This document shows, in pieces, positions 1,035-11,184 of a DNA stretch of 39,868 bases; the first letter of the stretch is position 1; each line of letters starts with the position of its first letter. The notes beneath the pieces were generated by a model. That model saw nothing but the letters and a program-made list of their open reading frames with translations, was not told the DNA's origin and ran no database searches. The translations under genes and the position numbers were made by a program. Location of the stretch: the IMG/VR virus record IMGVR_UViG_3300037258_001207, positions 1 through 39,868 of that record. One strand, written 5' to 3'. Source of the stretch: a virus.

Positions 1035-1279
1035 CGAAACTTACGCACAAGAACAGAAAGATCGTCCTTCGCAAGATCGAGCAGTCTCTGTTGCGGACTC
1101 CGATGGGCACCGGCGTTTTGGGTAATTGCCTAGCTACGCCGGCGCAGATTCGCGCGGCCGCGAAACAGATCCTGCAGCGCGCCATCAGCCAACAACGTAA
1201 AGGCCTCATTGCGCCCCAGCTGACTAATGAGCTGATCGAGAAGGTTGTTAGCGAAGCGCGTCAAGGCGGTGCGCAATGA
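1031..1279 (+). CDS. Small hypothetical protein
   Basis: An 82-residue basic, mostly helical protein starting at the ATG that overlaps the previous stop (1031). A longer reading from 920 exists but would overlap most of the upstream gene, so the coupled ATG is preferred. It contains NRKIVLRKIEQSLL and a stretch resembling an alpha-helical DNA-binding or protein-binding segment, but no motif I can name. It ends in the same ARQGGAQ-type junction as its neighbours and overlaps the ParB-like gene by 4 bases. Confidence 0.6.
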   Translation: MTKLTHKNRKIVLRKIEQSLLRTPMGTGVLGNCLATPAQIRAAAKQILQRAISQQRKGLIAPQLTNELIEKVVSEARQGGAQ

Positions 1280-2967
1280 CGAAGCCTGTTTCCGCAACCG
1301 TCTCCGACCAGGTGCAGGATCTTCCGCTTGACCGCATCTTTCCCTCGCCCACAAACCCGCGCAAATCGATCGATCCAGTGAAGCTCGACGAGCTGATCAA
1401 GTCGATCGAGGAGAGCGGGTTGATTGCGCCGATCGTCGTCCGGCCTGCCGGTGACGATCGTTTCGAGATTGCCTCCGGTCATCGTCGCTTCGCTGCCTTC
1501 CAAAAGCTCGGCTACAAAGCGATCCCGTCGCTCGTTCGCATCATGGAGGATGATGAGTTTCGCGAGACGCAGCTCGTCGACAATCTCCAACGCGAGGACA
1601 TCGATCCTCTGGATGAGGCCGACTCTTACGACGCGCTGTTGCCGTCGCTGGGCACGCCCGCGGCAATTGCGGCGCGGGTGGGCAAGACGATCGAGCATGT
1701 CGTTCGCGTGCTCAAGCTGCGCACTCTGATTCCCTTTTCGCGCCAGGCGCTCGCCGACAAGCTCATCACCATCGACCACGCCCTGCTGCTCGCCAAGCTC
1801 GCGCTGGCGGAACAGGAGAAGGCGCTGCGCTTTGCAATCCGGCCGAGCTGCACGCGCAAGGACAAGACCGAGGACCTGCTTGCGTCTGCGCGCAAGGACG
1901 CGAGTGCAAAGAACGGCGGTTCCCAACGCTGGGCGCATTATTGGGAGCCGCAGTCGGTACTCAACCTCAAGGCCTTCATCGAGCGCGAGATCAAGCTCGA
2001 GCTGAAGCGCGCGCCGTGGGACCTAGCTGATGCGGATCTCGTTCCGTCGGCGGGAGGTTGCACGCAGTGCCCGAAGAATACCGGGCACAACGTCGCGCTC
2101 TTCGGTGATCTGGCAATCGAGGAGTCTGTTTGCACGGATGCCGCGTGCTTCAATGCCAAACGTGAGGCCTTCGTCCAGATCCAGCTCGACGCAGTGAAGG
2201 CGGCTGGCCCCGACGCCGTCAAGATCTCGTGGAAGCACTCCGATGCCGCTCCCCGCGCACTTCACAGCGGCAATGATAAGTACCTCGCGCAGACGTTCAA
2301 GGCCGGGCAATGGGTCGAAGCGAAGAAGGCCTCTTGCGGCTTCGTGAAGACCGGCGTCGCAGTCGACTTCGACGAGGGCTACAACCGCGATCCAAAGAAG
2401 AAGCCTGGCGCCCAAAAGCTCGTTTGCACGGCTGCGGGCTGCAAGGTCCACAAGAAAGCGTGGGAGCGCTCCGAGAAATCCTCGGGCCCCGGAAATCAGA
2501 ACTCCGCCGAGAATGTCGCGAAGCGAGAGGAACGCGAAAAGCTCGCTGCTGTGGAGAACGCGACCCGCGTCGGCCTTGTCAGGCAGGCCATCGCTAAGAC
2601 GTCCAAACTGTCCGGCGAAGTGCTCCGCCAGGTAATCCTCTGTGCGCTGCCAGGCTGGCTGCATCCGGAGGACGAAGAGCGCTTCCCTGGCCTTGAGAAG
2701 GGACTGAAGACCCTCAAGGTTGAATCTCCTGAATTCGCGCGAGCCGCGGTGTGCCTGTTGTTCGTCGGCGACGACTCGGAATGCTTTGTCGGTGACTGGA
2801 ACGGCCCGGAACATGGGCGCAAAGAATTCCTAGCGCTGCTCAAGATTCTCGGCGTCGATGGCGGCTCCGCGTGGGCGAAGCCGGCGACGGCAAAGAAGGC
2901 CGTTCCTGCCAAGCCCGTGGCGAAGAAGACCGCCAAGAAATCTGCGAAGAAGGGAGCGAAGCGGTGA
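1276..2967 (+). CDS. ParB/RepB-like nuclease-fold protein with zinc motif and lysine-rich tail
   Basis: A 563-residue protein. Residues about 14-105 form a ParB/Srx-like domain: LPLDRIFPSPTNPRK at the start, then a region with GLIAPIVVRP and SGHRRFAAF (the GxRR box). A KorB-like helical segment follows at about 125-190. A cysteine cluster (CTQCPKNTG, then CTDAACF) at about 257-295 is typical of phage ParB-like proteins and probably binds zinc. The last 30 residues are a lysine/alanine repeat (AKKxAKK) like histone H1, likely non-specific DNA binding. No ParA partner is visible, so a role in early DNA processing or replication is more likely than plasmid-type partition. The exact function is not predictable from sequence. 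Confidence 0.85.
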   Translation: MTKPVSATVSDQVQDLPLDRIFPSPTNPRKSIDPVKLDELIKSIEESGLIAPIVVRPAGDDRFEIASGHRRFAAFQKLGYKAIPSLVRIMEDDEFRETQLVDNLQREDIDPLDEADSYDALLPSLGTPAAIAARVGKTIEHVVRVLKLRTLIPFSRQALADKLITIDHALLLAKLALAEQEKALRFAIRPSCTRKDKTEDLLASARKDASAKNGGSQRWAHYWEPQSVLNLKAFIEREIKLELKRAPWDLADADLVPSAGGCTQCPKNTGHNVALFGDLAIEESVCTDAACFNAKREAFVQIQLDAVKAAGPDAVKISWKHSDAAPRALHSGNDKYLAQTFKAGQWVEAKKASCGFVKTGVAVDFDEGYNRDPKKKPGAQKLVCTAAGCKVHKKAWERSEKSSGPGNQNSAENVAKREEREKLAAVENATRVGLVRQAIAKTSKLSGEVLRQVILCALPGWLHPEDEERFPGLEKGLKTLKVESPEFARAAVCLLFVGDDSECFVGDWNGPEHGRKEFLALLKILGVDGGSAWAKPATAKKAVPAKPVAKKTAKKSAKKGAKR

Positions 2968-4950: not shown

Positions 4951-5165
4951 GCAACATTGCCGCGCGGACCAAAGCCGATTCCACGTTCGAGGAATGGCTC
5001 GAAGGCCTGGCCAGCGTCTCGATCCGGCTCTGCCCGGATTGGGACGAGGATCTGCGCCGCAACTTCTACGAGGCTTCGCCCAGCGCCTGGCGTCGCTACT
5101 ACAACGACGGCTGCACGCCGGAATATGCCGTCCGCCGCGACATGCAGGATTGGAGCGATCTGTGA
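4947..5165 (+). CDS. Small acidic hypothetical protein
   Basis: A 72-residue protein starting at a GTG coupled to the membrane peptide (GTGA at 4947-4950). An in-frame ATG at 4824 would give 113 residues, but it reads through the membrane-peptide gene in a low-complexity frame. The recognisable part is acidic and aromatic: FEEWLEGLASVSIRLCPDW, then YYNDGCTPEYAVRRDM. I cannot name a family. It ends in a GTGA overlap with the next small gene. Confidence 0.55.
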   Translation: MSNIAARTKADSTFEEWLEGLASVSIRLCPDWDEDLRRNFYEASPSAWRRYYNDGCTPEYAVRRDMQDWSDL

Positions 5166-5326
5166 GACCTCAAAAAAAGAAAACCTACGGCCGTCCGCGC
5201 ATAACTGCCCTCGTCGACAGTGAGCTACGCGTTTGGGAATATAGGGTTCGCGATCGCGAGACGGGCGCGCTCCTTGGCGTGGGACGCACCAAGAGAGAAG
5301 CCCTGCGGGCCGCAGGTGTTAGATGA
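5162..5326 (+). CDS. Small basic hypothetical protein, 54 aa
   Basis: A 54-residue protein from a GTG overlapping the preceding stop (5162). It begins RPQKKKTYGRPR, a basic segment. It continues as a beta-hairpin-like region containing LRVWEYRVRDRETGALLG and ends with GRTKREALRAAGVR. The layout resembles a small single-stranded or AP2-like nucleic-acid binder, but that is only an impression. Its stop overlaps the ATG of the receiver-like gene. Confidence 0.55.
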   Translation: MRPQKKKTYGRPRITALVDSELRVWEYRVRDRETGALLGVGRTKREALRAAGVR

Positions 5327-5745
5327 GGCCTCGGCGCGTCATTCTCCTCTTCGATCCAACGGATCATGCGTTGCGCGTTCGCGGTTACATGTTTTGGGTT
5401 CATGGATATCGCGTGATCGGCGTGAATACGGCCGACGAAGCCTTCGACGCGCTTGGTTCTAACAGCGTTCATCTGATCGTGGCGCGTTATCGGCCGCCCG
5501 TGTATCTCGCCGAGGAGTTTGTCAGAAGCGTCAAGCTGATCGCTCCCGAAGTTCCGGTGATGCTCTTCGATCCCGACAATTCGAACCATGTTCGAGTAGA
5601 TTGCGCGGAAGCCTTTGTGGCGGGCGTGGCCTGCACGCCGGCCGAGATCCTGGATCGCGTGCGCATTCTGATTCAAAGGAAGCGCGGCCCGAAGAAGAGA
5701 TCGTCGGCCGTCTCAGCAGCGCAGCCTTCGCAGGTGATCGCGTGA
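5323..5745 (+). CDS. CheY-like pseudo-receiver protein
   Basis: A 140-residue protein whose first about 120 residues look like a response-regulator receiver fold. VILLFDPTD matches strand 1 with the acidic pair, HGYRVIGVNTADEAFDAL matches strand 2/helix 2, and HLIVARYRPP matches strand 3. In active receivers strand 3 reads like IVADYRLP; here the phosphorylated Asp is Arg. The conserved Lys near the end is also replaced (AFVAGVACTPAE). It is therefore probably not phosphorylated and would act as a constitutive or protein-binding module. A basic tail (RKRGPKKR) follows. A free-standing LuxR-type output domain lies about 320 bases downstream. Confidence 0.65.
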   Translation: MRPRRVILLFDPTDHALRVRGYMFWVHGYRVIGVNTADEAFDALGSNSVHLIVARYRPPVYLAEEFVRSVKLIAPEVPVMLFDPDNSNHVRVDCAEAFVAGVACTPAEILDRVRILIQRKRGPKKRSSAVSAAQPSQVIA

Positions 5746-6279: not shown

Positions 6280-6473
6280 TGGACGAAAGCAATGCGCCGC
6301 TCGCGATCGATATCGACATGGCCAAGCGCACCCTGTGGATCGAGGGCGTCGAGATCAGCTTCGGCGTTTTGAAGATACTGGCAAGGCCTGACCCGGCTGC
6401 TGTCTATCGTTTTCGTCGCACTGGCGATGTGGTGATAATCGAGCGCGCCGACACTCGCGGAGGCGTGCAGTGA
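6279..6473 (+). CDS. Small hypothetical protein
   Basis: A 64-residue protein with a beta-rich pattern (IDIDMAKRTLWIEGVEISFG, then VVIIERADTRGG). GAGGAGGGG just upstream serves as ribosome-binding site. A GTG immediately before the ATG (6276) would add one residue. The stop of the LuxR-type gene overlaps the ATG, and its own stop overlaps the GTG of the next gene. No family is recognised. Confidence 0.6.
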   Translation: MDESNAPLAIDIDMAKRTLWIEGVEISFGVLKILARPDPAAVYRFRRTGDVVIIERADTRGGVQ

Positions 6474-7588
6474 GCGCGAAGACCGGCATCGAGTGGACGG
6501 ATGCGACGTGGAATCCAATCCGCGGCTGCAGTCCGGTGTCGCCAGGCTGTAAGAACTGCTATGCCAGTAAGGTTGCGATGCGTTTCAGTGGGCCGGGGCA
6601 GCCCTACGAGGGCCTCGTGCGCATCAATGCTGCCGGCGAGCGCACGGATGAGTGGAATGGCGTGGTGCTGCCTGTAGAGAGGCATCTTCTCGATCCGCTT
6701 CGCTGGAAGCCTATTTTGAGAATCTGCGGGTTTTGCTATGGCGGCTGCGGCGAGGACGATCGCGATGGCGGAAGTTGCAAGTGCGAGAACCGGCCGCGCC
6801 GCATCTTCGTGAACTCTATGAGTGATCTTTTTCATGAGAACTTGCCGGATGAGGAAATCGATCGGGTTTTCGCGGTCATGGCGCTGCGCCCAGAGCATAC
6901 CTTTCAGGTGCTGACAAAGCGGCCCGAGCGGATGCTGCACTACTTTCAGCAGGTCGCCGAAGAAAAGGACATGCGGCGTTGGATTAACGCGGCGTATGAA
7001 ATTGTTCCCTACCTCTCGCCCTGCGCTGCGGGGATGATCGAGGACAGCGGTTACCCGTTGCCGAATGTGTGGCTCGGCATCTCGGTCGAAAATCAGAAGT
7101 ACGCGGACGAGCGCATTCCGTTGCTCTTGCGGACACCGGCCGCGGCGCGGTTCATATCTGCGGAGCCGCTGCTGGGCCCTGTCGATCTATCGATCGGGTT
7201 TCGCGTTCGCGAAGGCGTCAAGCAGGATGTGCTCTATGGGTCCGAAGGATTGCGCTGGGTCATCGCCGGCGGCGAGAGCGGGCCTGGAGCGCGGCCTATG
7301 CATCCGGATTGGGCGCGATCACTGCGGGATCAGTGTCAAGCGGCAGATGTTGCTTTCTTCTTCAAGCAGTGGGGGGAGTGGACGCCCGGGGAAAATGTCG
7401 AGCGTAGCAGCGGAGTAGTCGAGACGGCGACGTGGTTCGATGGTCGATGGATTTTCGAAAAGGAAAATCTGGCGTCGGATGAGGGTCACCGGGATGATGA
7501 ACCGGATCTCTACCGTATGGGCAAGAAAGCGGCCGGAGCGTGGCTCGACGGCCAGGAGTGGAAGCAGTTCCCGGAGGTGCCCGCATGA
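6470..7588 (+). CDS. Phage Gp37/Gp68 (DUF5131) family protein
   Basis: A 372-residue protein that clearly belongs to the Gp37/Gp68 (DUF5131) family. It has the opening GIEWTDATWNPIRGC, then SPVSPGCKNCYA (the three-cysteine motif), IFVNSMSDLFHENLPDE, FQVLTKRPERM, LPNVWLGISVENQ, RFISAEPLLGPVDL, WVIAGGESGPGARPM and FFFKQWGEW. The CxxxxxxCxxCYA motif resembles an iron-sulfur or radical-SAM-like site, but the reaction is not established. The family is common in tailed phages. An extra cysteine-rich insert (CGFCYGGCGEDD, then CKCEN) lies at about 85-105. The GTG start overlaps the previous stop. The three-Cys-motif partner protein TcmP, which often accompanies such genes, is not seen nearby. Confidence 0.9.
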   Translation: MSAKTGIEWTDATWNPIRGCSPVSPGCKNCYASKVAMRFSGPGQPYEGLVRINAAGERTDEWNGVVLPVERHLLDPLRWKPILRICGFCYGGCGEDDRDGGSCKCENRPRRIFVNSMSDLFHENLPDEEIDRVFAVMALRPEHTFQVLTKRPERMLHYFQQVAEEKDMRRWINAAYEIVPYLSPCAAGMIEDSGYPLPNVWLGISVENQKYADERIPLLLRTPAAARFISAEPLLGPVDLSIGFRVREGVKQDVLYGSEGLRWVIAGGESGPGARPMHPDWARSLRDQCQAADVAFFFKQWGEWTPGENVERSSGVVETATWFDGRWIFEKENLASDEGHRDDEPDLYRMGKKAAGAWLDGQEWKQFPEVPA

Positions 7589-10191: not shown

Positions 10192-11184
10192 GTGGGAACG
10201 ACTGAACAAATTGGGCTGCGCGATCGACGCAAGCCGGGACACTGCTGGCAGGATAACGAGCTCTACGACGCCTATCAGCCGGTCATCGGCTCCCTGCCGG
10301 TGCTGGTGTACGTTCAGGCTACGCGCCATTGCTACGGCTCTATGGCGAAGTTCAGTCTGCGAAGTATGGCCGAGAGCTCGGGAATCAGCAAGGACACGGT
10401 GCGCCGCGCGCTGCTGATCATGCAGGAGATCGGGATGCTGCGCGCATGCGGCGGAGCTCCGGGCCGCGCGGCCGAATATGAGCTCGTCGACCTCAAGGAC
10501 CTGGCCGCGCATCTCGGCGCGCAATACGACCGCAGGCGAGCATCGTATGTTTTCCCGGAAGCGATCGTGGCGGAGCTCCGGGCGAAGGTCGAAAAGGTGC
10601 TCGGCAAGACACAGGGCAAAACTGTCTCTGTGAGAGACAGTTCGCATTCTGTAAAACGCAAGGCAACTGTCTCTCAGAGAGACAGTTTGTTTGTGGAAAA
10701 GGCTGCGGAAAAGGCCGATCCGGGTGTCTCTCCGAGAGACGCAGCTGTCTCTCTGGGAGCCAAAACTGTCTCTCCGGAGGGACGCCCTTATATAAGCAAT
10801 ACTCAAAACAACAAAACAACCTCTCCCCTACCCCTCCCCGCAAGCGGGAAGGGGAAAGACACCGGGATTCCGAATCGCGATACCCAACTCCTCGAGGCGG
10901 CGCACGCCGTTTGCGCGGAGGTTGGCATCGCCGAACCACGCCGCGAGAAAGAGATTCGCAGGGCGATTGCGCTGTACTGCGATCGCGAGCGCATGTCTCC
11001 GGCCGAAGTGGCGGCGGCGATGATCGCGGCCTGGCGCGAATACCGCGAAGCGCGCGAGGACATGCGCTTTCCCTGGGGCGCGCGTAAATTTATTATCGGC
11101 GGCCACTGGGCGGATCCGCGTTCGTGGCCTCGTGATCGCTGGGAGCAGCCGCGCGGACCCGACGCGCGTGTTGGCATGCGATAG
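10192..11184 (+). CDS. Replication initiator, O-like, with internal origin
   Basis: A 330-residue protein from a GTG preceded by GGAAGG. Residues about 20-100 hold a winged helix-turn-helix: LPVLVYVQATRHCYGSMAKF, SLRSMAESSGISKDTVRRAL, then MLRACGGAPGRAAEYEL. Residues about 140-230 are a low-complexity linker (TVSVRDS, TVSQRDS, GVSPRD, AVSLGAK, TVSPEG). It is encoded by DNA iterons, as in lambda gpO where the origin lies within the initiator gene. The C-terminal 100 residues are helical and end around WGARKFIIGGHWADPRSW, a fit for helicase-loader or helicase contact. I infer that it binds its own iterons and starts theta replication. No separate helicase is visible. Confidence 0.75.
   Translation: MGTTEQIGLRDRRKPGHCWQDNELYDAYQPVIGSLPVLVYVQATRHCYGSMAKFSLRSMAESSGISKDTVRRALLIMQEIGMLRACGGAPGRAAEYELVDLKDLAAHLGAQYDRRRASYVFPEAIVAELRAKVEKVLGKTQGKTVSVRDSSHSVKRKATVSQRDSLFVEKAAEKADPGVSPRDAAVSLGAKTVSPEGRPYISNTQNNKTTSPLPLPASGKGKDTGIPNRDTQLLEAAHAVCAEVGIAEPRREKEIRRAIALYCDRERMSPAEVAAAMIAAWREYREAREDMRFPWGARKFIIGGHWADPRSWPRDRWEQPRGPDARVGMR
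10620..10786 (+). repeat. Five palindromic iterons: probable replication origin
   Basis: Two perfect palindromes AACTGTCTCT-3 nt-AGAGACAGTT lie at 10620-10642 and 10665-10687. A third, less complete copy (core GTCTCT-CCG-AGAGAC) is at 10722-10744. Two half-sites are at 10743-10752 (AGCTGTCTCT) and 10764-10773 (AACTGTCTCT). Spacings between starts are 45, 57, 21 and 21 bases, the last two close to two helical turns. They lie within the initiator gene and encode its linker. An AT-rich tract follows directly. Confidence 0.7.
10787..10822 (+). other. AT-rich tract after iterons, probable DNA unwinding element
   Basis: The tract tatataagcaatactc followed by aaaacaacaaaacaac is clearly AT-rich compared with the GC-rich surroundings and lies directly downstream of the last iteron. 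This order (iterons then AT-rich) matches the lambda-type origin. It is read in frame as an asparagine-rich linker (YISNTQNNK). Assignment as an unwinding element is inference. Confidence 0.5.
10831..10854 (+). repeat. REP-like GC-rich hairpin inside replication gene
   Basis: CCCCTCCCCGC (10831-10841) and GCGGGAAGGGG (10844-10854) form an 11-bp stem with one mismatch and an AA loop, preceded by ctctccccta. The overall shape resembles the dispersed REP-like repeats found between genes in many bacterial genomes. Here it sits inside a reading frame (linker SPLPLPASGKG). Confidence 0.5.

Follow-up and report, generated by a model that had tools for sequence, protein, structure and literature searches.

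Why a cluster of palindromic repeats should lie within the coding sequence of a virus gene is the question raised by IMG/VR virus record IMGVR_UViG_3300037258_001207, a contig of 39,868 bp whose whole length constitutes the window analysed here. The gene in question encodes a protein with a winged-helix DNA-binding domain, and the repeats, referred to below as iterons, are followed within the same gene by an AT-rich tract. A preliminary description of the window, made from its letters, had likened this arrangement to the origin of lambda (oriλ), which lies in gene O. The present analysis supports the comparison, and we put at about 90% the probability that a temperate tailed phage of Acidobacteriota starts its replication here, at an origin of the lambda type situated within its own initiator gene.

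The array extends over 167 bp (10620-10786) and holds five sites at successive spacings of 45, 57, 21 and 21 bp, with iterons 3-5 sharing one register (Table 1). Iterons 1 and 2 have the form AACTGTCTCT-N3-AGAGACAGTT; they are the only two copies in the record when up to three mismatches are allowed, and none arises in 100 dinucleotide shuffles. The two perfect 23-base palindromes, the partial palindrome and the two half-sites of the preliminary description (the last at 10745-10752 and 10766-10773) are all borne out, as are their placement within 167 bases and the 21-base spacing of the last copies. The 57-bp gap is read as 45 + 12 bp, because a 12-bp tandem duplication lies within it and alignment with the closest relative, L003, leaves a 12-bp length difference between iterons 2 and 3. 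The sharp AT-rich tract that was said to follow the iterons is likewise present: positions 10786-10822 are 70% AT as against 38% in the gene, a level reached by just 0.13% of the 37-mers of the record, and the AT maximum of the gene falls there. Beyond it lie a C-rich motif and a GC hairpin, together covering 10825-10854, which had been absent from the earlier list of elements.

Table 1. Features of the initiator gene and of the proposed origin within it (window positions).
Feature	Position	Strand	Details and basis
Initiator gene	10192-11184	+	330 amino acids, GTG start; O-like winged-helix replication initiator; family alignments, O-like PHROG matches
N-terminal winged-helix DNA-binding domain	10252-10620	+	residues 21-143, recognition helix SKDTVRRAL; AlphaFold pLDDT about 95
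Iteron 1	10620-10642	+	perfect 23-bp palindrome
Iteron 2	10665-10687	+	perfect 23-bp palindrome, 45 bp from iteron 1
12-bp tandem duplication	10692-10715	+	TGTGGAAAAGGC/TGCGGAAAAGGC; copies 10692-10703 and 10704-10715
DnaA-box-like sequence (tentative)	10692-10700	-	TTTTCCACA, between iterons 2 and 3; also in L003
Iteron 3	10722-10744	+	near-perfect palindrome, arms 7/8 and 6/8
Iteron 4	10743-10765	+	perfect arm and degraded arm (8/8, 5/8), 21 bp from iteron 3
Iteron 5	10764-10786	+	perfect arm and degraded arm (8/8, 2/8), 21 bp from iteron 4
AT-rich tract, presumed DNA unwinding element	10788-10824	+	starts TTATATAA, A/C-biased strand; also in relatives
Conserved C-rich motif	10825-10834	+	CCCCTACCCC; reading frame differs among relatives
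GC hairpin	10831-10854	+	CCCCTCCCCGCAAGCGGGAAGGGG, one mismatch in the window; perfect with other stems in several relatives
C-terminal helical domain	10870-11121	+	residues 227-310, conserved WGxxKFxxxGHW...WPxD; AlphaFold pLDDT above 90 over most; alignment

The gene was compared with 25 further distinct linker-bearing relatives drawn from IMG/VR and from Acidobacteriota genomes, which gives 26 members with the window. Translation confirms that the iterons are read in frame as the TVSxRDS repeats of the protein's linker, and repeats that are in frame and translated are what would be seen if they were those of a flexible-linker peptide, or hairpins of the messenger RNA, with no DNA element involved. 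We give this explanation next to no chance of being right. Synonymous shuffles fail to reproduce the repeats: the best 7-mer of the window, TGTCTCT, is present in 7 copies, compared with at most 5 in 1000 such shuffles, and in 22 of the 26 members (all except L004, L005, L006 and L007) at most 4 of 1000 whole-gene synonymous shuffles match the array. The 7-mer test was used in place of a count of palindromes with 7/8 arms, which is too permissive against synonymous shuffles. Relatives translate one and the same DNA motif in several frames, both at the iteron sites and at CCCCTACCCC, and selection therefore acts on the DNA. Synonymous codons are conserved as well. When codons specifying identical amino acids in the window and in L003 are scored for DNA identity, 42 of 45 are the same in the origin elements (93%) and 95 of 171 elsewhere (56%; Fisher p=6e-7), the parts being the iterons (25/27), the AT tract with the C-rich motif and hairpin (17/18), the N-terminal coding region (62/107) and the C-terminal coding region (33/64). 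The many half-sites at 21-bp spacing are, moreover, unneeded for RNA folding. The preliminary description had envisaged relatives with a conserved linker peptide and no palindromes; the opposite is found, in that the linker amino acids vary and the origin DNA is either conserved or changed jointly in both arms. Judged by these comparisons, what is kept is the DNA and not the linker peptide.

The layout is conserved along with the motif. The array directly follows the winged-helix domain in 25 of 25 relatives (24 of them clear). Its usual order is an iteron, about 45 bp, iterons at 21-22 bp, the AT tract and, in most cases, a C-rich element or hairpin. Spacings in the family as a whole concentrate at three values: there are 33 cases of 21 bp, 13 of 22 bp and 19 of 45 bp. 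In roughly half of the relatives the hairpin surpasses what synonymous shuffles yield. It was also considered as a common genomic repeat, and this was rejected, as the host genomes tested contain 0-2 copies each of its 15-mer (at most one mismatch). Palindromes bound by a winged-helix protein could alternatively be operators, with the protein a transcription factor or repressor instead of an initiator, and dimeric repressors do suit palindromic sites; the helix-turn-helix Pfam matches of the domain, which fall below the cut-off, also go to generic regulator families. The sites, however, lie 430-595 bp into the gene, with none at the promoter or elsewhere in the record, and the general palindrome pattern is almost confined to the initiator gene in 16 virus records. 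An AT-rich tract lies downstream of the sites in all relatives, and O-like replication PHROGs are matched, so that a role as operators seems very improbable.

Diversification of the sites goes together with that of the protein. By their N-terminal domains the members comprise a group like the window's, a second group (PCHFWVDNEVADCYQP) and a small number of remote ones, and the half-site differs between subfamilies in both arms jointly. The window and L003 have CTGTCTCT, and L014 and the second group have CTGTCGCT; nine other relatives carry GTGTCCC or a variant of it, two remote relatives GCGTTTCT, and L005 CTGGCCCT. The first base of the half-site is C in every member whose recognition helix has Asp (14 members) or Asn (L005 alone) at position 3, and G in the 11 others, which have Ser, Met or Ala there; L010, L031 and L040 had a wrong automatic motif call or none, and their residues were assigned by visual inspection. 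A code by which the recognition helix sets the first base of the half-site is a suggestive lead and not proof, as 3 changes on the tree suffice to account for it. The same association bears on whether the array might be a parS-like centromere for the phage's own ParB-like protein (window 1276-2967), a protein with ParB_N and HTH_ParB domains for which the window and 8 of 15 related virus records have a gene; centromeres can indeed be clustered palindromes. The half-site type nevertheless follows the recognition helix of the initiator, the array is always in the initiator gene and adjoins the AT-rich tract, and several related records, including some of 35-37 kb, have intact iterons without ParB, although these may be fragments. 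We consider a centromere hardly to be expected here.

The structure of the protein accords with the division of the gene. Between the two folded domains of Table 1, AlphaFold predicts that linker residues 144-226 are disordered, with a predicted local distance difference test (pLDDT) score of about 40 over most of them, and it is these residues that are encoded by the iterons, the AT tract and the hairpin. Of 25 members, 12 match the O-like PHROG 678 and 11 match PHROG 18020, weakly (best about 3e-5) and mainly in the winged-helix region; lambda O matches the two at 1.7e-35 and 1.9e-10. The window's own protein gives no match to either at E<=0.01, and its match to a replication initiation PHROG has E = 0.017. 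Foldseek comparison with BFVD viral models gives matches of up to 7e-6 to phage winged helix-turn-helix proteins; one of these is named 'lambda GpO N-terminal', and several are replication initiators. These matches are weak and mostly concern the winged helix, and comparison with the PDB returns generic winged-helix proteins, none at E <= 0.001. The resemblance of the family to the O-like proteins of phrog_678 and phrog_18020 and to the BFVD phage initiators is weak and lies mainly in the winged-helix N-terminal domain. The C-terminal domain presumably contacts the helicase or a host protein.

In lambda, the origin lies within gene O, dimers of O bind inverted-repeat iterons, a 40-bp A+T-rich region opens, and the DnaB helicase joins through P (PMC5043065, PMC7466680). 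The order inside O is four inverted-repeat iterons at 20-24 bp, an AT-rich tract and an imperfect palindrome (PMC5043065). The locus described here resembles oriλ, and the origins of the Shiga toxin (Stx) phages P27 and 933W, in being intragenic, in its inverted-repeat iterons with 20-24 bp between sites, in having directly downstream an AT-rich tract whose coding strand is A/C-biased, and in the inverted repeat beyond, so that both layout and order match the annotated lambda origin (PMC5043065, PMC7466680). It differs in that the iterons are 23-bp CTGTCTCT palindromes where those of lambda are 18-19-bp ATCCCTC repeats, in the distal site 45 bp apart, in the extra CCCCTACCCC element and in its Acidobacteriota host. 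The iteron plasmids P1, RK2, R6K and pSC101 likewise have phased initiator-binding repeats adjoining an AT-rich tract; unlike theirs, the repeats here are palindromic and intragenic, and a search of PLSDB found no homologue of the initiator, nor did a search of INPHARED phage records.

Several observations weigh against an origin of this type. Pfam Phage_rep_O (PF04492) is matched at E<=0.01 by 0 of 25 members, where lambda O gives 5.7e-36, and hhalign of the family with the single lambda O sequence is not significant (probability 0.5%). The scan of left-arm open reading frames (ORFs) revealed no loader resembling P or DnaC, although some small ORFs were unscanned and a loader may be unrecognised. 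The array of L005 is degenerate, the hairpin of the window is weak, being equalled by 24 of 200 shuffles, and GC skew, which had been put forward earlier as a check, has no turning point at the origin site. Membership in the Phage_rep_O family is not claimed; that the locus and its protein function like oriλ and lambda O is well supported. The sites, their geometry, selection at the DNA level and diversification together with the protein can be read from the sequences themselves, and from these we infer that the initiator binds the sites, melts the DNA and recruits the helicase, and that the fragment would replicate autonomously.

By analogy with lambda, dimers of the winged-helix initiator would occupy the palindromes, of which three are proximal and one or two distal, and the bound complex would strain and open the adjoining AT-rich tract. 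The three proximal sites would stack on one face of the helix at 21-bp steps, that is, at two helical turns. The origin itself encodes the disordered linker that tethers the C-terminal domain, and this domain would then bring in the replicative helicase, which is probably that of the host and could be recruited directly or via a loader. The C-rich motif and hairpin would delimit the melted DNA on its far side and may aid entry of helicase or primase. A more far-reaching proposal, in which CCCCTACCCC and the GC hairpin admit helicase or primase to single-stranded DNA and so stand in for a loader of the lambda P type, and in which recognition helix and half-site are in addition linked by a specificity code, strikes us as doubtful.

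DnaA may contribute in part of the family. A remote relative, L040, has a perfect TTATCCACA and a relaxed TTTTCCACA DnaA box between its iterons (roughly +96 to +131 past the winged-helix domain), which suggests that DnaA assists initiation in some members. The majority of members are without a DnaA box, and DnaA is therefore not a general requirement. Other variation is seen around the gene. Just past the hairpin there are tandem in-frame repeats of 48 bp in L006 (3631-3725) and L007 (3586-3776) and of 66 bp in L009 (3572-3703), their copy number varying among close relatives. In L019, an ORF at 5001-5399 ends right after the winged-helix domain, with neither iterons nor AT tract, and is possibly a truncated copy or an initiator-derived regulator.

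The record looks like a temperate tailed phage because it encodes a large terminase, portal, head maturation protease, major head protein and tail proteins, together with an integrase at its right end. Relatives of the initiator are present in Acidobacteriota metagenome-assembled genomes and genomes, and the host is apparently a member of that phylum; one relative, L030, is located near position 316,000 of a bacterial contig and is probably part of a prophage. The gene for the ParB-like protein (563 amino acids) is some 8 kb away from the origin, and together with an integrase it makes an unusual pairing. The early region also encodes a DUF5131 / phrog_2045 protein (window 6470-7588; E about 1e-94 to 1e-110).

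On this reading the locus represents a known kind of origin in a little-studied phage group, one that its relatives document unusually well. The initiator has no convincing match to a curated Pfam or NCBIfam replication model, and yet its origin can be read from the sequence. The roughly 25 naturally diverged pairs of initiator and origin, with their near-fixed geometry, lend themselves to the study of how specificity changes jointly in intragenic origins and in the proteins that bind them, and such origins may offer a basis for Acidobacteriota replicons, should suitable vectors be scarce there.
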